The notes under the pieces are model-generated. The model was not told the DNA's origin. It saw nothing but the letters and a program-made list of their open reading frames with translations, and searched no databases. Both the position numbers and the translations under genes were made by a program. From a virus, in the IMG/VR virus record IMGVR_UViG_3300030328_002792, positions 1-30,459 of that record: 30,459 bases of DNA; one strand, given 5' to 3'. Position 1 is the stretch's first letter, and each line of letters starts with the position of its first letter. Below, one piece after another: positions 1 through 29,644 of the stretch.

Positions 1-548
1 ATGGAATTAAACAAGGACAAAATCACAAAGGAATTTGTTTCGCAGGTCAATCTTATATTCACAAAGAAAAGAAATGGGATAATGAAATTCCATCAAAAGA
101 ATATTTTGATCAATTATTTCGTGTGTCAAAAAATCAAGTAATTTGGGGAGGTAATTATTTTATTGATCACTTATTCAATACACGTTGTATGTTAGTATGG
201 GATAAAATGAATGGCACAAATCGAATATCTGATTGTGAATTAGCATGGACTTCTTTTAATACATCGGTTCGGCGATTTCAATGGCATCATTTCAGCGGAA
301 CAAATGATGATGAAAAATATAATCGTATCCATCCAACACAAAAACCGGTTGCATTATACGCATGGATATTAAATAACTACGCAAAAGAAGGTGATAAAAT
401 ATTAGATACATATCTTGGATCCGGATCCATAGCCATCGCATGTCATAACCTTGGATTTGATTTGGATGGATATGAATTGGATGTGGATTATTATGAAGCA
501 GCATCCAAGAGATTGAAAGAACACCAACGCCAATTGAAACTATTTTGA
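1..548 (+). CDS. DNA adenine methyltransferase, beta class (5'-partial)
   Basis: The frame is open from the first base of the window, so this is the C-terminal ~180 residues of a longer protein. The first full codons read GIKQGQ, and in the next gene the equivalent GI follows the catalytic DPPY motif, so the cut falls just after where motif IV should be. Visible parts are the WGGNYF segment, a variable target-recognition stretch, HPTQKP (motif X region) and the AdoMet-binding DTYLGSGS (motif I). Motif IV before motif I is the beta-class order of N6-adenine or N4-cytosine methyltransferases. A GTG at 123 could be mistaken for the start, but homology to the next gene runs upstream of it. The specificity is unknown; it probably protects phage DNA from restriction. 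Confidence 0.85.
   Translation, partial: GIKQGQNHKGICFAGQSYIHKEKKWDNEIPSKEYFDQLFRVSKNQVIWGGNYFIDHLFNTRCMLVWDKMNGTNRISDCELAWTSFNTSVRRFQWHHFSGTNDDEKYNRIHPTQKPVALYAWILNNYAKEGDKILDTYLGSGSIAIACHNLGFDLDGYELDVDYYEAASKRLKEHQRQLKLF
330..548 (+). repeat. Direct repeat copy 1: shared 3' end of tandem methyltransferases
   Basis: This 219-base segment encodes HPTQKP through the stop and is nearly identical, without gaps, to 998-1216. I see only about a dozen to fifteen substitutions, mostly at third codon positions. Confidence 0.85.
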
Positions 549-562
549 TGGAGGAAATAACA

Positions 563-1216
563 ATGATAAATCTATACAACCAAGATTGTTTGGAAGCGAT
601 GAAAAAGATGGATGATAATAGTTATAATTTGGCTATTGTAGATCCACCTTATGGAATCAACATGGATGGCGGTAAAATTGGAAAAGGAAAAAAAATGGAA
701 AAAAAAAATTGGGATAATCAAACACCAACAAAGGAATATTTTAATCAATTATTTCGTGTATCAAGAAATCAAATCATTTGGGGCGGAAATTATTTTACTG
801 ATAAATTATTAGTGACAAAATCTTGGTTATATTGGGATAAAATGCAAGATGGTTTTGGTAAAACATTTTCGAGTGGTGAACTGGCATGGACCTCTTTTGA
901 TTATGTAATGAAACAAATTCGTTATAAATGGCAGGGAAATTATTGTGGTTTTGAAAAAAATATCACTATAAAAACCTCTTTTCATTATAAGAAAATACAT
1001 CCAACACAAAAACCGGTTGCATTATACGCATGGATATTAAATAACTATGCGAAGGAAGGCGATAAAATATTGGATACACATCTTGGATCCGGATCCATAG
1101 CCATCGCATGTCATAATCTTGGATTTGATTTGGATGGATATGAATTGGATGTGGATTATTATGAAGCAGCATCCAAGCGATTGAAAGAACACCAACGCCA
1201 ATTAAGATTATTTTGA
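563..1216 (+). CDS. DNA adenine methyltransferase, beta class
   Basis: A 217-residue methyltransferase that transfers a methyl group from AdoMet to a DNA base, probably adenine N6. DPPYG (catalytic motif IV) lies near residue 30, WGGNYF near 70, a variable target-recognition part at about 80-140, then HPTQKP and DTHLGSGS (AdoMet motif I). I chose the ATG at 563 because GGAGG lies 7 bases upstream; TTG 545 and ATG 548 overlap the previous stop without such a site. It follows the previous methyltransferase in the same operon. The last 219 bases are nearly identical in the two genes while the middle differs, so they may recognise different sites with a shared catalytic back half. Family certain; specificity unknown. 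Confidence 0.9.
   Translation: MINLYNQDCLEAMKKMDDNSYNLAIVDPPYGINMDGGKIGKGKKMEKKNWDNQTPTKEYFNQLFRVSRNQIIWGGNYFTDKLLVTKSWLYWDKMQDGFGKTFSSGELAWTSFDYVMKQIRYKWQGNYCGFEKNITIKTSFHYKKIHPTQKPVALYAWILNNYAKEGDKILDTHLGSGSIAIACHNLGFDLDGYELDVDYYEAASKRLKEHQRQLRLF
998..1216 (+). repeat. Direct repeat copy 2: shared 3' end of tandem methyltransferases
   Basis: Partner of 330-548, same length, ungapped alignment. The preceding parts of the two genes have diverged far more, so this looks like a duplication kept similar by gene conversion, or a recent domain swap. Confidence 0.85.
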
Positions 1217-4843: not shown

Positions 4844-5377
4844 CTAGTCGTTCAAAAAATCCCATTCGGAATTATCATATGTATTGTTATTTATTGTATT
4901 ATTATTGTTATATATTGTTTGTGCTTTGGATTTCCGGTCACTTAGTGTCTTGGATTTCCGGTCACTTAGTGTACTGGATTCCAGTGCTTTAGGTGTATTG
5001 GATCCTAGGGCACTGTATTTCAGGATTTTGGGTGTGGTTAATTCATAAATCGCCGGATTTCCTAATCGCTGTTTTACTGTTAATAATCCAAGATCTTTTA
5101 ATTCTTTGATTCCGGATTGAATAACAGATCTTGATTTTTCCAAAATGTTTTCAAACGTCTTTTGGGAAATGTTATTTTTTTCCGTTCCAGTTTTACGTAT
5201 CAACACCTTTTGATCTTGATATGTAATTCTTGCATGAAACACCATCCAACAATATATTTTGATGGATATTTGACGTTTCATTCGATTAAATTGTAGTAAG
5301 TCAAAATCAAACAATCTCGCATGTTGATATGATTTGTTTGATTTATTGGTTGATTGTGATATATTGTCTTTGTGCAT
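4844..5377 (-). CDS. Replication initiator-like protein with internal iterons
   Basis: 177 residues. Residues about 23-115 fit a winged-helix fold of phage replisome-organiser/initiator type: a hydrophobic first helix (QISIKIYCWMVFHARI), a helix pair over 69-98 and the wing (LGLLTVKQRLGNPAIYEL). Residues 128-152 contain tandem 8-residue units (TLSDRKSK twice, with degenerate copies) encoded by 24-bp DNA repeats. The tail is Asn-rich, then acidic. In lambda-like phages the initiator gene carries the origin iterons inside it and the protein binds them; the same arrangement here suggests this is the phage origin. RusA and the alphaCTD gene lie upstream. The start lacks a strong Shine-Dalgarno. 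Confidence 0.6.
   Translation of the reverse strand: MHKDNISQSTNKSNKSYQHARLFDFDLLQFNRMKRQISIKIYCWMVFHARITYQDQKVLIRKTGTEKNNISQKTFENILEKSRSVIQSGIKELKDLGLLTVKQRLGNPAIYELTTPKILKYSALGSNTPKALESSTLSDRKSKTLSDRKSKAQTIYNNNNTINNNTYDNSEWDFLND
4926..5020. repeat. 24-bp direct repeats inside the initiator gene (putative origin iterons)
   Basis: Two perfect 23-base copies start at 4926 and 4950. A diverged copy starts at 4974 and a weaker one at 4998, all at exact 24-bp spacing; a further partial match begins near 5021. The shared core starts tTGGATTtCC. The DNA conservation is stronger than the 8-residue protein repeat requires only in the two perfect copies. Position within a winged-helix replication gene matches lambda O-type origins. 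Confidence 0.6.
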
Positions 5378-5926: not shown

Positions 5927-6167
5927 TGGTTTTTTCCTCCATTTGTGTTTCAAATATCAAGATCCAAAACTGGCGTGCAATTTGGATTTTTTCATCATCA
6001 TCATCGGATAACAATTCGGCGATTTTCATGACATATCCAAATGTTGGGATATGGGTTCCACGTATCCAATTATAGTATGTTTGGCGTGATACACCGATAT
6101 CAACACACAAATCCGTTTTCGTTTTCTGCTTCATAAATAGCAATTTCATTATATAGTGTTCTAACAT
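5916..6167 (-). CDS. XRE-family helix-turn-helix regulator
   Basis: 83 residues. Residues 14-55 form a typical Cro/C1 HTH: KTKTDLCVDIGVSRQTYYNW with the conserved G-V-S turn and recognition helix, then IPTFGYVMKIAELL. The C-terminus is acidic then helical. The ATG overlaps the stop of the alphaCTD gene (TAATG), with GGGGGAA upstream as ribosome site, so the two proteins are translationally coupled. It is the best candidate in the window to bind the operators in the divergent control region at 6608-6682, but this is inference from position. Confidence 0.8.
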   Translation of the reverse strand: MLEHYIMKLLFMKQKTKTDLCVDIGVSRQTYYNWIRGTHIPTFGYVMKIAELLSDDDDEKIQIARQFWILIFETQMEEKTNEK

Positions 6168-6577
6168 TATTTTAATTCCCCCAATTCAGCGCCATATTTG
6201 ACTTTTAATATTTCTTTGATTTCATTTAATGATTTTCTGCCCATGTTCTTCATTTTCAATAAATCGGTTTGTGTTAGTTTCAATAATTGATGAAGATATT
6301 CAATATTTGAATTGTGCAAACAATTTGCCGTTCTAACTGATAATTGTAGATCTTCAACCTTATCTAACAATGGAACCGGCGCGCGTTTGATTTCGTCAAC
6401 GTTCCACCATTCATTGAATTTTGTAATCAATTGATCATGTTGATGTTCACCGATTTGGATGGAATGTTGGCCAATAACGATCCAACATTGATTTTTTACA
6501 TCCTTCATAACCAATGATATTTGATCGGTTTTGATGTGATGGTATGAACCATCTAATGATTGTATTTTAATAAACAT
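6167..6577 (-). CDS. RNA polymerase alpha C-terminal-domain fusion protein
   Basis: 136 residues. The C-terminal half (about 68-132) matches the alphaCTD of bacterial RNA polymerase. It has VEDLQLSVRTANCL at 74-87, then NIEYLHQLL, then MGRKSLNEIKEIL at 112-124. The DNA-contact residues known from E. coli alpha are present: R265 is R82, N268 is N85, C269 is C86, G296 is G113, K298 is K115, S299 is S116 and E302 is E119. The sigma-contact E261 is Gln (Q78). Residues 1-57 are an unrelated beta-rich domain replacing alphaNTD, so it cannot assemble polymerase. First gene of the minus operon, with GGAGG before the ATG. Likely a transcription regulator or decoy acting at UP elements. Confidence 0.85.
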   Translation of the reverse strand: MFIKIQSLDGSYHHIKTDQISLVMKDVKNQCWIVIGQHSIQIGEHQHDQLITKFNEWWNVDEIKRAPVPLLDKVEDLQLSVRTANCLHNSNIEYLHQLLKLTQTDLLKMKNMGRKSLNEIKEILKVKYGAELGELK

Positions 6578-8029: not shown

Positions 8030-8612
8030 TATATTTTCCTGTTAAAAGTGTATATGTGAATGTTGGCCATCCACGAAATTCAATTTGTTTTCTACATAAT
8101 AACATAAAATGATCGAATTCAATAGGTGACGCGAACACTTGACATCCTGCGCTGTATTTATCCACAAAAACGGATTCACGCGTTGGATTGGAACGATGGA
8201 TATTTATTCCAAAAATACCTTGATCAACAACCTGTGTTTCCTCGGCTACCTCATCGCGATCCGAATCACGCCATACGCGAACCGGTAAACGCTGACATAA
8301 TGCATCATATTTTCCACGGTGTTTTCCAATTTGCCATCCGCCTCTAACTTGCTGAGGACTACATAAAACTGCCGTTCCCTTTTTCCTTCCATTCAACAAC
8401 CAGTATTTCCCTGGTTCGGTTGTAATCTTATACTTGTGATGTTTCCATTGGCCATGTTCTTTATAGACTAGATGCATCATATCATCAAATTTGTTAGGAA
8501 CAGCGGCACCCAATGGAGTACGCACACCAATAATATTCAAGTTATAATCACCATTTTCAAAAACTCGAAAACCGGCGGATTCAACAATATCAAGAATATG
8601 GGGCCGTGTCAT
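8016..8612 (-). CDS. Putative peptidoglycan-active enzyme (SxGC motif, YkuD-like)
   Basis: 198 residues. The C-terminal part has INIHRS (H139) followed by KYSAGCQVF (S154, C157). His and a Ser-x-Gly-Cys arranged this way are the active-site signature of YkuD-type L,D-transpeptidase/cysteine peptidase folds, which act on the peptide stems of peptidoglycan. Position supports a lysin: directly after the tail genes and before a holin-like gene. The N-terminal half (about 1-110) shows no known cell-wall binding domain. No signal peptide is visible. ATG 8612 overlaps the previous stop (ATGA), with CGGAG upstream. The enzyme family is an inference from the short motif. Confidence 0.55.
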   Translation of the reverse strand: MTRPHILDIVESAGFRVFENGDYNLNIIGVRTPLGAAVPNKFDDMMHLVYKEHGQWKHHKYKITTEPGKYWLLNGRKKGTAVLCSPQQVRGGWQIGKHRGKYDALCQRLPVRVWRDSDRDEVAEETQVVDQGIFGINIHRSNPTRESVFVDKYSAGCQVFASPIEFDHFMLLCRKQIEFRGWPTFTYTLLTGKYNEEN

Positions 8613-16785: not shown

Positions 16786-17289
16786 TTACGGTGTATAGGT
16801 AGATCTAACAATACCACCATAACATTCACCTGTTAGACTGATTGAATCCGGATCACCTTCTGAAACTTGATATGTTAGTAAACATTTGGATAATGTGGCA
16901 CGATGTCCAACAACTTCGGCACCAACTGAAGTTTTATCCACATCAAAATCAATATCAACCAAATATTGTTCATATCCATTTCCACCGGTTGAAACATAAG
17001 CGGCGGCGTTTCCGGTTCTCATGATGAAATCAATGATGGAATCCGATGACGCGTTGGTTAATTCTCGTAGATGAACAGTAAATGAAAATGATAAAACTGG
17101 ATCATCGGCACGGCGCAAACCAACAATGGTTCCACGGTCACGAATTACCACACGGTCGGCTTTTTCTTCGGTATAAGTGAAATCGCCATTCTCATATGCG
17201 ACTACATACGCGTTTGGTGTTGGTGTTGTTCCATCTTTGATATATATTTTTCCATCGCGCCTAACCGCGACACTGGTAGATTCAGCCAT
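16786..17289 (-). CDS. Major tail tube protein
   Basis: 167 residues, beta-rich, no signal or membrane segment. The size and fold type suit siphovirus tube proteins, which form stacked rings around the tape measure. It lies between the tail terminator candidate and the tail chaperones, the standard position. AAGGAG lies 7 bases before ATG 17289. The central part (RGTIVGLRRADDPVLSFSFTVHL) reads like the long beta hairpin segment of tube proteins. I am confident from gene order more than from motifs. Confidence 0.75.
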   Translation of the reverse strand: MAESTSVAVRRDGKIYIKDGTTPTPNAYVVAYENGDFTYTEEKADRVVIRDRGTIVGLRRADDPVLSFSFTVHLRELTNASSDSIIDFIMRTGNAAAYVSTGGNGYEQYLVDIDFDVDKTSVGAEVVGHRATLSKCLLTYQVSEGDPDSISLTGECYGGIVRSTYTP

Positions 17290-20882: not shown

Positions 20883-21182
20883 ATGGCTACAAATCTAACA
20901 TCCGCAAATTCATTTCCATATATCTATGTTGTTTCCGTTGGAACTACCTGGAACGAAATCCAACTTCCAACGGGCGCCAAACGTGTCACCATCGGCGCAT
21001 CGGCTGCTTTATATGTTGGGCAAAATGGCGCTTCTGATTCCGGTGCGGTTGGTACACACAAAGCGTTTGTGACATCCAATAATTATTTGGAATTGGAATT
21101 GAAAAACGATACACAAAGAGCCACATCAATTTTTGTAGCTGCCCAAACTGGAACCGCCAGTGTATCCATAATATTAGAATAG
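20883..21182 (+). CDS. Small beta-rich structural protein
   Basis: 99 residues, Ser/Thr/Ala-rich, predicted all beta: VVSVGTTWNEIQLPTGAKRVTIG and GTASVSIILE at the end. It resembles small head-decoration or fibre-associated proteins but no family is recognised. AAAGGAAAA precedes the ATG. It is the first gene of the plus-strand fibre operon, followed after 31 bases by the next. Confidence 0.55.
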   Translation: MATNLTSANSFPYIYVVSVGTTWNEIQLPTGAKRVTIGASAALYVGQNGASDSGAVGTHKAFVTSNNYLELELKNDTQRATSIFVAAQTGTASVSIILE

Positions 21183-21213
21183 ATATAACATTTCATAGCG
21201 TTAAGGAGGAACC

Positions 21214-21459
21214 ATGGCGCGGTTATTATATTCTGATGGAATTTCGGAATTAAAACAACTTGACATATCAAACCAAATTGATGGAAACACTTCCACATTC
21301 ACAACTACCGAATCGATTGAACAATCATCAATACGTGTATACTATAACGGAATCAGACAAAGTCCAAATGACATATCATTCAATTCATCAACATCGTTTA
21401 ATCTTTCATTCACGCCACAAATCGGTGATTTTCTATTTATTGATTATGTGGTTGGATAA
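21214..21459 (+). CDS. Tail-fibre-related beta domain protein
   Basis: 81 residues. The second half (SIRVYYNGIRQSPNDIS... FNLSFTPQIGDFLFIDYVVG) aligns in pattern with the C-terminal end of the neighbouring tail fibre (VNGVMVYKNG...LSFGAALADSDSILIWYLT). The two seem to share a small beta module, often found at the end of phage adhesins. AAGGAGG precedes ATG 21214. It may be a free-standing fibre tip or attachment domain. Confidence 0.55.
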   Translation: MARLLYSDGISELKQLDISNQIDGNTSTFTTTESIEQSSIRVYYNGIRQSPNDISFNSSTSFNLSFTPQIGDFLFIDYVVG

Positions 21460-21493
21460 TCTTTTTTCTTTCCCTCAAAAATAGGAGTCTTAA

Positions 21494-23311
21494 ATGGCTG
21501 TTCAAATTACCGGATCGCAAATTAAAAATAGCGAAATCGGAACATCAAAATTACAAGATAATTGTGTTACATCGCAAAAAATTCTTGATTCAAATATAAC
21601 ATCGGCAAAAATTGCATCAAGTGCGATTACATCGGCAAAAATCGCAAATGGCGCCATCGATGCAGCGGCAAAATTGGCGGATAATGTTGTCACATCGGCA
21701 AAAATTGATTTGACTGGAACATTCAATTTTGGGCCGGGTACCTTACAAGCGGGTAACCCATCAAACGCTTCTGATGTTGCTACAAAAAATTATGTTGATT
21801 CTGCGGTTTCATCGGATATATATTGGAAAGAACCATGCCGTGTTGCTTCCACGGCTAATATCAACCTTTCAAGCGCACCGGCTGCCATTGATGGCGTCAC
21901 ACTCGCAAACAACGATCGTGTATTGGTTAAAGATCAGTCTACGGCATCACAAAACGGTGTTTATGTTTTTGCTTCCGCTTCTAGTGCTATGACAAGAGCC
22001 ACCGATGCTGACAGCGCCGCGGAAATCAACGGTGCGGCTGTATTCATCAAAGAAGGTTCGACAAGTGCGGATCAAGGTTTTAATATGAATGCCGAGGTTG
22101 TGAATTTTGGCACCGATGCAATTACATGGGTACAATTCACCGGGTTGGGCCAAATAACAGCTGGAAATGGATTAACCAAAACAGGAAATCAATTGGATGT
22201 TGCTGTTGGAAATGGTATCCAAATATCAAGTGATGCCGTGGCATTTCGCGCCGGTGCCGCTTTGGATTTTGCCGGTGGTGATGTTGATGTTCAAGTTGAT
22301 GATTCATCCATCGAAATCAATGGATCCGGAAATCTTCAAGTTAAGGCAAACGGTATAACATCCGCCATGATCGGCACAAATCAAGTAACTGGAAGTGAAA
22401 TAGCAGCGTTGGCCGTAGCCACGGCAAACCTAGCCGATTCAGCCGTGACATCCGCCAAATTAGGCGCTTCAAGTGTTTCAGCGGTTAAGATTGCTTCAAA
22501 TGCGGTTACATCGGACAAAATCCAATCAAACGCGGTTACGGAAGCAAAAATAGCTACATCGGTTGCTGGTGATGGTTTATCCGGTGGTAATGGTTCACCA
22601 TTGGCCGTTTCCGTTGATGATTCTGGTATTGAAATTGCATCGGATACATTACAATTGAAAAATCTTGGGGTTTCAACGGCAAAACTAGCCGATAATTCCG
22701 TGACATCGGCAAAAATTCTTAACGCAAATGTGACCGGTCCAAAATTAGCCGCAACCGTTGCCGGAAATGGTTTGATCCAAAATGGATCTGGAAATCTTGA
22801 TATATCCGCCGGTGATGGATTGGAATTTTCCGGTGTTAATATCCAAGTTAAATTGGGCGCCGGTCTTGAAATTCAAGGCGGAGCGGTTGATATAGAAGTT
22901 GATGATTCTACTTTAGAAGTCAATGTAAGTAATAATGAATTGCAGGTTAAAAACCTTGGGATTACATCCGGAAAATTAGCAAATGCAAGTGTTCAAACCG
23001 CCAAAATTGGCGATGATCAAGTGACTTTTGCAAAGGTTGGATGGCGTATGTATCAACAACTTTCAACAATATCCGGTGGATCTACAACCACGATTGATTT
23101 GGCCCGCGCTTTAGATGCTAATGCTGTAAACGGTGTAATGGTTTATAAAAACGGTTTGGCTTTGTTAAATCAAACCGCTTTGAGCGGATCACCTGGAAAC
23201 AGTGATGAATTTAGTGTTTCACCTGATGGTGGTGCTGGATCCGTGGCACGTTTGAGTTTTGGCGCTGCCTTGGCTGATTCGGATTCCATTTTGATTTGGT
23301 ATTTGACATAA
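21494..23311 (+). CDS. Tail fibre protein with VTSAKI-type repeats
   Basis: 605 residues. The N-terminus has tandem degenerate repeats of about 10 residues (ITSAKI, VTSAKI, ...), which recur in clusters to about residue 510 and are typical of fibrous trimeric phage fibre shafts. At about 98-215 lies a globular insertion (NASDVATKNYVDSAV ... NNDRVLVKDQS ... QNGVYVF). Other parts carry repeated GNGL / VDDSxxEI beta units. The C-terminal ~85 residues form the module shared with the previous gene. It probably makes the receptor-binding fibre. AGGAG precedes the ATG; a terminator follows. Confidence 0.8.
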   Translation: MAVQITGSQIKNSEIGTSKLQDNCVTSQKILDSNITSAKIASSAITSAKIANGAIDAAAKLADNVVTSAKIDLTGTFNFGPGTLQAGNPSNASDVATKNYVDSAVSSDIYWKEPCRVASTANINLSSAPAAIDGVTLANNDRVLVKDQSTASQNGVYVFASASSAMTRATDADSAAEINGAAVFIKEGSTSADQGFNMNAEVVNFGTDAITWVQFTGLGQITAGNGLTKTGNQLDVAVGNGIQISSDAVAFRAGAALDFAGGDVDVQVDDSSIEINGSGNLQVKANGITSAMIGTNQVTGSEIAALAVATANLADSAVTSAKLGASSVSAVKIASNAVTSDKIQSNAVTEAKIATSVAGDGLSGGNGSPLAVSVDDSGIEIASDTLQLKNLGVSTAKLADNSVTSAKILNANVTGPKLAATVAGNGLIQNGSGNLDISAGDGLEFSGVNIQVKLGAGLEIQGGAVDIEVDDSTLEVNVSNNELQVKNLGITSGKLANASVQTAKIGDDQVTFAKVGWRMYQQLSTISGGSTTTIDLARALDANAVNGVMVYKNGLALLNQTALSGSPGNSDEFSVSPDGGAGSVARLSFGAALADSDSILIWYLT

Positions 23312-23340
23312 TAAAAATTATTTCAAAATAGTAAAATTAA

Positions 23341-23369
23341 AACCATCCAATCATCGGATGGTTTTTTTT
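23341..23369 (+). terminator. Rho-independent terminator after the tail fibre gene
   Basis: 8-bp stem aaccatcc / ggatggtt (23341-23348 with 23356-23363), then a T-run. The stem is the same as in the two minus-strand cassettes; the loop differs. Between this and the promoter at 23512 (about 140 bases) I see no gene. Confidence 0.88.
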
Positions 23370-23511
23370 ATTGGTGATGTATGCAAAAATTAAAAAAAGG
23401 ATTTTGTTGGATCTTGTTAATGATCTTGTTTTTGTTGATTGTTAAATCATTGTGATATCGGTTGTTTTTTTATTGGTGTCAAATAAATCTTATTATATTG
23501 TAAAAAAATAC

Positions 23512-23540
23512 TTGACACATCAAAAGATAATGGATAATAT
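23512..23540 (+). promoter_or_regulatory. Sigma70 promoter for the small genes at 23574-24013
   Basis: TTGACA (23512-23517), 17 bases, TAATAT (23535-23540). The upstream region is A/T-tract rich. The leader (ataaccaatcaac) matches those of the cassettes at 1988 and 2337, on the opposite strand. Confidence 0.88.
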
Positions 23541-23573
23541 ATTTATATAACCAATCAACAAAAGGAAAAAACA

Positions 23574-23777
23574 ATGACTAACCAACAAAAAATTGAAATC
23601 GCTAACTGGATACAAGATCAAAACATAGCTGGATGTTACACTGATGGAAAAATCGAGTGTTTCAATTGGAATCAATTTGATCAAGTAGATTGTATTCTTA
23701 CAGATATGGGATGTGAATTTGACTATCAAGAACACAATATTGGTGGCGAATTTTGGATCATCATAACAATCAAATAA
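23574..23777 (+). CDS. Small hypothetical protein in a promoter/terminator cassette
   Basis: 67 residues, acidic, MTNQQKIEIANWIQDQ..., no known domain; an N-terminal helix followed by beta-like stretches ending GGEFWIIITIK. AAAGGAAAA precedes ATG 23574, and the promoter and leader are of the same kind as at 2021-2049 and 2372-2400. A hairpin and a second small gene follow. Probably an early accessory protein; function unknown. Confidence 0.65.
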   Translation: MTNQQKIEIANWIQDQNIAGCYTDGKIECFNWNQFDQVDCILTDMGCEFDYQEHNIGGEFWIIITIK

Positions 23778-23793
23778 TAATCTAACTAACACC

Positions 23794-23811
23794 GGCGGTT
23801 GAAAAACCGCC
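23794..23811 (+). other. Intercistronic hairpin with GAAA tetraloop
   Basis: Perfect 7-bp stem GGCGGTT / AACCGCC with a GAAA (GNRA) loop and no T-run, between two small genes of one transcript. Such hairpins often protect mRNA ends or serve as processing sites. Confidence 0.6.
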
Positions 23812-23851
23812 ACAATCTAATCAATCAACATTTCCAAAGGAGGAAATAACA

Positions 23852-24013
23852 ATGACTACACAAAACATTGAAAAAAAATATATTCTCATTCACTTCTATA
23901 ACGCCAATACAATCATCTTGATGAACAATGATTTCGCATTGGATTACATCATTACACATTCACACGAAATTGAATCAATGGAATATATTGATCTTGTTAT
24001 TCCAACCGAATAA
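23852..24013 (+). CDS. Small hypothetical protein (53 residues)
   Basis: Starts MTTQNIEKKYILIHF and ends IDLVIPTE. A strong AAAGGAGG 8 bases before the ATG supports translation. Alternating hydrophobic strands (YILIHFY, IDLVI) suggest a compact alpha/beta fold. It is the last gene of the plus-strand unit and is followed at once by a terminator. Function unknown. Confidence 0.6.
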   Translation: MTTQNIEKKYILIHFYNANTIILMNNDFALDYIITHSHEIESMEYIDLVIPTE

Positions 24014-24036
24014 CATTCCACCAAATCAAACAAATC

Positions 24037-24066
24037 AACCATCCAATCATCGGATGGTTTTTTTTG
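24037..24066 (+). terminator. Rho-independent terminator
   Basis: Same stem and loop as at 23341 (24037-24044 with 24052-24059) followed by a T-run. On the minus strand the same hairpin is followed by a partly U-rich stretch, so it might also help end the convergent operon. Confidence 0.88.
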
Positions 24067-24193
24067 TGGATAAACCTGTGGATAACTTTTATAACCTGTG
24101 GATAAGTCTGTGGATAAACCTGTGGATAACTTTTATAACCTGTGGATAAGTCTGTGGATAAACCTGTGGATAACTTTTATAACCTGTGGATAA
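24065..24193. repeat. Array of nine DnaA boxes
   Basis: The 9-mer TGTGGATAA, reverse complement of the consensus DnaA box TTATCCACA, occurs exactly nine times. Starts are 24065, 24077, 24097, 24109, 24121, 24141, 24153, 24165 and 24185. All point the same way, spaced 12-20-12-12-20-12-12-20, so a 44-bp unit of three boxes is repeated. The 20-bp gaps hold AT-rich acttttataacc. It lies in non-coding DNA between convergent operons and may be a DnaA-dependent origin or a DnaA-titrating site. Confidence 0.85.
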
Positions 24194-24418
24194 CTATTCA
24201 TCAATTGGATTTGATCCCATTGTATCTTCATTCAATTGGTTGTCTACCTCTTTCCATTGTCGTAGTAACTCACCATAAACACGGTCCTTTGAATAGCCCA
24301 AATTACGCGCGAAAACAATAGCTATAAATATACCCATCATAAAAATATTGGATGCCGGTTCACCCTGTTGATCAAGATCGTAGGCATACCACAATAATTT
24401 TTTTATATTCGCTTCCAT
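24194..24418 (-). CDS. Small hypothetical protein
   Basis: 74 residues. A central hydrophobic stretch (NIFMMGIFIAIVFARNLGY) could be a membrane segment or a buried helix; the C-terminus is acidic. It is the last gene of the terminase-to-scaffold operon, its stop directly adjoining the DnaA-box array. The ATG lies 2 bases after the stop of a 13-codon Lys-rich ORF, suggesting coupled translation. Ribosome site weak. Function unknown. Confidence 0.5.
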   Translation of the reverse strand: MEANIKKLLWYAYDLDQQGEPASNIFMMGIFIAIVFARNLGYSKDRVYGELLRQWKEVDNQLNEDTMGSNPIDE

Positions 24419-28678: not shown

Positions 28679-29644
28679 TCACCACGGGATATTGTACATT
28701 TCTTTTTGAATTTTTCTATATTCTTCTATATCGTCAAGTATACCACTTTTCATGATATACCGGCCTATGGTTTCACTACATTGGGGGACAATGGCATTTC
28801 CTAGGGCTTTAAATCTGTCCACCCGATTGGAAATCCCATCATCCATTCTACAAAGCGGGGATTCAATCGGTGTTGTGTTCCAATAGTTTCTTTTGTGTAT
28901 CCTTCCATTTTCGCCGCTTCTATATTCAAACTGTTTTTTCTTTTCCACTGTGACATCGTGCAAGGATTGTTTTTCGCTTCGTTCGTGGATGGTGTTGGAA
29001 GGTTCACACCTTGTTCCATCATCAATTGGATTTGAATTCCAAGATCTATTGGAATATTCCCTTTTGTGTTGTATTTCTTTTGATATTTTTCGTTCCTCTT
29101 TTTCCACAATTCCAAATTTCTTAATTGTGTACATTTTAACGGGGTACGCAACAAAAAAGATCCTTTCTCTTTGATGCGGCGCGCCTTCATCCGATGCACG
29201 TACATCGATCCATTCCACATCATACCCGATTTTGGATAGCGATGAGATGACGATATCCATTCCTCGTTCTTTTTGAGTGATTGCTGTGACATTTTCAGCG
29301 ATTGCGATTCGTGGTCGTACCATATTAATGATTCGTAACATTTCAAACCAAAGACCGGACCGCGCACCATTGGCGATTCCTTTTCGTTTTCCGGCTTGAC
29401 TGATATCTTGACATGGGAAGCCTCCGCAAATAATGTCCACAATGTCAATTGTTCCATGTTTGATCTCCTTTATATCATCATAGATTGGAACATCCGTCCA
29501 ATGTTTTTTCAATACCTTTTGGGCAAATGCGTTTTGTTCACACTGCCAAATGGTTTTTGAATTTGGAATTGCACGTTCCAAACCTAATTCAAAACCACCG
29601 ATTCCGGAAAATAATGATCCAATTGTTATTTGTTTATTCATCAT
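28679..29644 (-). CDS. DNA cytosine-5 methyltransferase
   Basis: 321 residues. Motif I LFSGIGGFELGLE (11-23), motif IV GGFPCQDIS (74-82, catalytic C78), motif VI ENVTA (117-121), motif VIII QRERIFFVA (158-166), and near the C-terminus motif X ALGNAIVPQCSETIG. The target-recognition region between VIII and X is short and of unknown specificity. The enzyme adds a methyl group to cytosine C5, probably for anti-restriction. It lies between terminase genes. A second gene in the +1 frame covers most of it (see 28801-29457); all motifs here are in one intact frame. Confidence 0.93.
   Translation of the reverse strand: MMNKQITIGSLFSGIGGFELGLERAIPNSKTIWQCEQNAFAQKVLKKHWTDVPIYDDIKEIKHGTIDIVDIICGGFPCQDISQAGKRKGIANGARSGLWFEMLRIINMVRPRIAIAENVTAITQKERGMDIVISSLSKIGYDVEWIDVRASDEGAPHQRERIFFVAYPVKMYTIKKFGIVEKEERKISKEIQHKREYSNRSWNSNPIDDGTRCEPSNTIHERSEKQSLHDVTVEKKKQFEYRSGENGRIHKRNYWNTTPIESPLCRMDDGISNRVDRFKALGNAIVPQCSETIGRYIMKSGILDDIEEYRKIQKEMYNIPW
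28801..29457 (-). CDS. Overlapping gene nested in the cytosine methyltransferase, +1 frame
   Basis: 218 residues entirely inside the methyltransferase gene on the same strand, +1 frame. The ATG has a textbook AAAGGAG (29471-29465) 7 bases upstream, which does not lie at any methyltransferase start. The protein carries YPKSGMMWNG (74-83), LPTPSTNEAKNN (153-164) and LNPRFVEWMMGFPIGWTDL (198-216). As I remember, such motifs recur in phage proteins found with cytosine methyltransferases, which suggests a conserved overlapping family; I could not search. Both frames keep conserved motifs over the last ~60 bases, a strong sign of dual coding. Function unknown, perhaps linked to target recognition. 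Confidence 0.7.
   Translation of the reverse strand: MEQLTLWTLFAEASHVKISVKPENEKESPMVRGPVFGLKCYESLIWYDHESQSLKMSQQSLKKNEEWISSSHRYPKSGMMWNGSMYVHRMKARRIKEKGSFLLRTPLKCTQLRNLELWKKRNEKYQKKYNTKGNIPIDLGIQIQLMMEQGVNLPTPSTNEAKNNPCTMSQWKRKNSLNIEAAKMEGYTKETIGTQHRLNPRFVEWMMGFPIGWTDLKP

Follow-up and report, generated by a model that had tools for sequence, protein, structure and literature searches.

The array of nine perfect DnaA boxes described here, located at 24065–24193 on the minus strand of a stretch of phage DNA of 30,459 nucleotides (positions 1 to 30,459 of IMG/VR record IMGVR_UViG_3300030328_002792, hereafter the window), is an optional, exchangeable cassette that is present in some members of a group of close relatives, absent from others, and dispensable. 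On the evidence of its sequence, the array is tentatively read as an accessory cassette for the capture of host DnaA, the initiator of bacterial chromosome replication, and would then probably serve as a titrating decoy. Capture is argued for by the perfection of the consensus, the DnaA-like spacing, the retention of the boxes while the spacers differ, and the dispensability of the block.

The box array and its junction

Eleven exact copies of TTATCCACA are found in the window, where 0.82 are expected (standard deviation 0.81) and where none of 100 shuffles reached 11. Nine of these copies form the array, and the other two, at 8158–8166 and 16934–16942 (both plus strand), are isolated perfect boxes in coding regions, at chance level. 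The minus-strand boxes start at 24065, 24077, 24097, 24109, 24121, 24141, 24153, 24165, and 24185, corresponding to start-to-start distances of 12, 20, 12, 12, 20, 12, 12, and 20. All nine point in one direction and together span 129 bp on a lattice of 11–12 bp, and Tandem Repeats Finder reports a period of 44 with 2.9 copies at 100% identity over 24065–24193. Read on the minus strand, the 12-bp modules consist of a box followed by GGT or GAC, and the 20-bp module consists of a box, GG, and TTATAAAAG. Five of the eight gaps between neighbouring boxes therefore measure 3 bp, and the remaining three measure 11 bp and carry TTAT 2 bp after the box. An earlier, sequence-only reading of this DNA had described nine exact same-direction boxes on the minus strand, a 44-bp period with 12/12/20 spacing, and a position in the gap between convergent operons. 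Exact matching confirms the first of these, the tandem-repeat analysis and the start distances confirm the second, and the third agrees with a plus-strand ORF ending at 24013 and a minus-strand ORF at 24194–24418.

The window is the contig of a tailed phage, with terminase, portal, capsid, and tape-measure genes. Its IMG/VR record is classed as linear, the contig is possibly incomplete, and no terminal repeat was found in it. The array is flanked by two converging operons, a plus-strand operon at about 20883–24013 and the minus-strand terminase-portal operon. The former ends in a 53-aa ORF (23852–24013, plus strand) with homologues in relatives L009 and L017 only, and the latter ends in a 74-aa ORF (24194–24418, minus strand), the stop codon of which abuts the first box and which is 75–99% identical in eight relatives, array-bearing or array-less. 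At the opposite end, the array adjoins a hairpin terminator predicted for both strands (24037–24059; stem AACCATCC/GGATGGTT; terminator score z about −4 on each strand), whose plus-side T-run runs into the first box. The neighbours of the array are small ORFs without known family, followed by portal and terminase, with no dnaA, dnaN, rep, or other replication gene among them, and a comparison with Rfam gave no match.

Presence and absence among related phages

The relatives considered are 16 IMG/VR loci whose terminase is 94–97% identical to that of the window. Twelve of them reach the junction, giving 13 phages together with the window, and neither alignment-based scans nor scans with the O gene recovered further relatives beyond this first set. 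The array is present in three of the 13 phages, with nine boxes in the window (12/20 spacing), six in L013 (12/20), and ten in L018 (12/21), and it is absent in the other ten, including the nearest relative, L017 (92% nucleotide identity). Six of the array-less phages (L005, L007, L009, L010, L011, and L017) read GAATAAAAAAA(A)CCATCC across the junction, that is, the block is missing to the base, and L014, L015, L016, and L019 carry other, unrelated short sequence at this place. In the three related arrays, all 25 box copies are perfect, and the spacers differ, the long ones reading GGTTATAAAAG, GGTTATTTGAG, and GGGTTATATAAG.

On a well-supported tree built from the neighbouring 4.3 kb, with the array excluded, the state of the array requires three changes, whether gains or losses, and the carriers do not form one clade (AU p about 1e-100). 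Since the window and L013 have the junction GATGAATAG-TTATCCACAG in common, exchange by recombination is plausible.

Further variation is found around the junction and elsewhere in the contig. At the end of the plus-strand operon (window 23574–24064, compared with L005, L009, L010, and L017), the small ORFs and terminator hairpins differ from relative to relative, and this end of the operon, beside the array, appears to be a spot of frequent gene exchange. The terminator loop at 24037–24059 (CCATCCGATGATTGGATGG) is shared with the more distant L011 and not with the window's own clade, seemingly a further sign of recombination at the junction. Two adjacent DNA methylase genes at 3–548 and 545–1216 (plus strand) have nearly identical C-terminal halves and look like a recent tandem duplication; neither was found in the relatives examined. 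A C5 methylase gene lies at 28679–29644.

The replication of the phage probably starts elsewhere than at the array, most likely at repeats and AT-rich DNA within a gene for an O-like, HTH_36-type replication initiation protein (4844–5377, minus strand; phrog_428, 4e-7; phrog_678, annotated as 'replication initiation O-like', 3.2e-6). This gene contains 3.2 tandem copies of a 24-bp iteron (4926–5003, minus strand), beside which an AT-rich segment at 4870–4920, which ranks third among the least stable 50-mers of the window, is a candidate unwinding element. The region 4870–5018 is accordingly laid out as a candidate phage origin of the lambda type, with iterons inside the initiator gene and then AT-rich DNA, a likeness that belongs to this region and not to the array. 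The array-less relative L005 retains the O-like gene (92% at the amino acid level) and its repeats, and 60 bp spanning the AT-rich segment are unchanged there; these 60 bp are likewise identical in L156. The least stable 50-mers beside the array stand only at the 78th–92nd percentile of the window, compared with the 99th or above for the segment in the O-like gene; by this measure of stability in the window, no strongly unstable AT-rich unwinding DNA was found beside the array. The array and the O-like gene are about 19 kb apart. The sequence-only reading had also called for an analysis of GC skew, in which the cumulative skew follows gene direction and the array is not singled out.

The view of the array as an essential origin is weakened by its absence in ten of 13 phages, by the lack of adjacent strongly unstable DNA, and by the iteron origin candidate in an array-less relative, and the three changes needed on the tree make such an origin unlikely. 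A tie between the array and one replication module can be rejected, as array-bearing L018 has no O-like gene and possesses instead a VapE-like helicase (PF05272, 5.8e-56), preceded by a protein that has no Pfam match and is read as a putative primase. The array thus co-occurs with either module, the O-like one in the window and the VapE-type helicase with its putative primase in L018. Among close relatives these modules are swapped, the O-like gene with iterons being found in the window and L157, and the VapE-like helicase with the putative primase in L158 (10706–12924; the contig of L018).

Comparable arrays and the predicted binder

A scan of IMG/VR for three perfect boxes in the same direction within about 90 bp returned at least 120 viral stretches, compared with nine for a reversed 9-mer control. 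In a sample of 121 viral arrays (L021–L141), 110 are intergenic, with genes called by a simple ORF rule, and only two contain nine or more perfect boxes. The commonest gaps, in counts that include related phages, are 2 and 3 bp, followed by 12–13 and 24 bp. Spacers of 10–14 bp show a TTAT half-site two bases after the box (1.81 of four letters matched, compared with 0.98 in shuffles), and because they often hide such a degenerate box, the arrays are longer than exact matching shows. For 76 intergenic arrays both neighbouring genes are visible, and ten of these lie between convergent genes. An apparent enrichment of arrays beside terminase genes was rejected, since randomly chosen ORFs from these loci gave an equal frequency.

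Matching arrays also occur in cultured phages, including Lactococcus 949-like, T5-like, Vibrio schizoT4, and T7-like phages as well as microviruses. In a microvirus, such an array stands directly behind the replication initiator gene. The claim that an array of this sort is unusual for a phage accordingly holds for its size, nine or more boxes being rare in the sample, and fails for same-direction arrays as such, which are frequent. In T5-like phages, Klebsiella phages ZK1 and 175002, Arthrobacter phage Seahorse, and Streptomyces phage Moab, arrays are situated near the record ends, and arrays so placed might enter the cell early. The closest non-viral matches are an Epulopiscium contig, in which the array directly follows an ORF that reads as DnaA at its end, a Formicincola plasmid, with the array beside the rep (initiator) gene, and the Buchnera plasmid pTrp, which has no annotated rep gene.

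Several known systems resemble the present array in part. The Epulopiscium oriC region, the Formicincola plasmid, and Buchnera pTrp share its box, flanks, and 12/20 spacing, whereas the phage array has no adjacent dnaA or rep gene and no strongly AT-rich unwinding DNA, and is dispensable among close relatives. The T5-like phages (Demerecviridae) have clustered consensus DnaA boxes in non-coding DNA, including pairs with a 3-bp gap; however, there are fewer of these boxes, they are interspersed with large repeats, and they are placed in the long terminal repeat, whereas the present nine perfect boxes form an unmixed tandem array where two operons meet. The T5 injection stop signal itself occupies first-step-transfer DNA of a terminal repeat and is accompanied by large repeats and inverted repeats. 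The Lactococcus 949-like, Vibrio schizoT4, and T7-like phages and the microviruses have same-direction, perfect or near-perfect intergenic boxes, although these phages are unrelated and their boxes are mostly spaced at 20–21 bp (Lactococcus, Klebsiella ZK1), less numerous, or mismatched. Likeness to datA and other E. coli loci for DnaA titration or reactivation lies in a non-coding box cluster that could hold DnaA away from oriC. While datA has two consensus boxes and four with one misfit and acts with IHF (PMC5835720), the nine boxes of the present array are all perfect, same-direction, and periodic. In the open-access literature, no publication was found that treats the DnaA-box arrays of phage genomes as a class. 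The kind of array is already known at least in T5, because the injection stop signal of T5 has been described as including DnaA boxes (PMC13250531), and the size, purity, and cassette behaviour of the present array are the new part.

Host DnaA is likely to bind the array, given that the spacing, 3 bp or 2 bp plus a TTAT half-site, is that preferred by E. coli DnaA. ChIP-seq in E. coli has shown that DnaA binding is found mainly at paired boxes separated by 2 or 3 bp, and a base inserted into a 3-bp gap strongly lowers binding (PMC11317965). The array fits this preference published for E. coli DnaA. No phage-encoded DnaA was found in the window or in 50 array-bearing viral records, none of the 50, many of them fragments, encoding a DnaA C-terminal domain. 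The binder would hence be the DnaA of the host. The same result, with the same proportion of fragments, counters the possibility that the viral arrays are contamination with bacterial oriC. The sequence-only reading had proposed that the phage recruits host DnaA for its own origin or titrates it to stop host initiation. A platform for host DnaA is well supported at the sequence level by the perfect consensus, the spacing, and the missing DnaA domains, and titration is compatible with the data, whereas the part concerning an origin of its own has been weakened.

Proposed DnaA capture and competing explanations

Under the preferred explanation, capture by a titrating decoy, host DnaA would load onto the block in a cooperative manner, forming a series of dimers or a short filament. 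As copies of the phage DNA accumulate, their boxes would draw DnaA away from oriC and from the promoters that it regulates, so that new rounds of host replication would be held back and the phage would have the shared replication machinery to itself. In E. coli, it is established that boxes carried on plasmids titrate DnaA (PMC5835720). Against capture, a strongly useful titration might predict the array in more than three of 13 relatives, and the closest arrays of other replicons are found at, or next to, origins that are either known or likely. A wider version of the same idea, that phages of many lineages carry interchangeable DNA-only decoys, in the form of short perfect-box cassettes that come and go at operon ends and would block new host initiation by titration without any phage protein, is rather unlikely.

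The array could alternatively be an accessory or conditional origin, at which bound host DnaA would open nearby DNA and load the host helicase, thereby providing a second start site. We regard this as unlikely, and it is to be reckoned with because the closest non-viral arrays are at or beside origins. Similar arrays adjoin replication genes (the dnaA-like ORF of Epulopiscium, the plasmid rep gene, the microvirus initiator) or sit on the rep-less pTrp, and all boxes point one way, as in an oligomer-nucleating array. However, the array is absent in ten of 13 phages, including the nearest relative of the window; the O-like gene, its iterons and AT-rich DNA included, persists in a relative without the array; the DNA flanking the array is less unstable (78th–92nd percentile) than the segment in the O-like gene (at least the 99th); and that gene is about 19 kb away. 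Quite doubtful is a role as a transcription roadblock or insulator, in which array-bound DnaA would back up a weak bidirectional terminator and separate the convergent operons. The block does stand exactly between the stop codon and the bidirectional terminator in all three carriers, and DnaA reportedly ends transcription by acting as an obstacle to RNA polymerase (PMC11317965). This common position, however, may represent one insertion spread by recombination, relatives manage with the hairpin alone, and a convergent setting is not general, as it applies to only ten of the 76 intergenic viral arrays whose neighbours on both sides can be seen.

A neutral or selfish minisatellite, grown by slippage at an insertion-tolerant spot and without effect on the phage, would be in keeping with the identical 44-bp units, the dispensability of the array, and the unrelated short sequence at the same spot in L014, L015, L016, and L019. 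Such an origin of the block is improbable, given that the boxes stay perfect while the spacers change between arrays, that the spacing follows the preference of DnaA, and that arrays of the reversed 9-mer are at most one thirteenth as frequent (nine compared with at least 120). As has been proposed for phage T5, whose injection stop signal is described as containing DnaA boxes (PMC13250531), the array might also mark DNA entry or packaging, and several cultured phages carry matching arrays near their genome ends. The present array lies mid-contig, however, in a contig that is possibly incomplete, and terminase genes are no commoner beside viral arrays than among the other ORFs of the loci. We regard this explanation as highly improbable.

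If the decoy reading is true, the phage would control initiation of the host chromosome by DNA alone, and pairs with and without the array, such as the window and L017, which are 92% identical, would constitute a ready-made natural test. Even if it is false, the survey shows that tandem arrays with DnaA-like spacing occur commonly in the intergenic DNA of phages, where they have apparently received little study, and for at least this phage group it would be wrong to take every such array for an origin.

Regarding the host, searches with the portal and a tail protein gave no relative among cultured phages, and relatives of the terminase and the M15 peptidase are scattered over many hosts. A phage protein of 136 aa (window 6167–6577, minus strand), 100% identical at the amino acid level in L157, ends in an RNA polymerase alpha C-terminal domain (PF03118, 2.8e-22), and its nearest PDB chains are 9zum and 7ye1, which we take to be alphaproteobacterial. 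This protein alone gives a hint of an alphaproteobacterial host, the transcription of which it may redirect.
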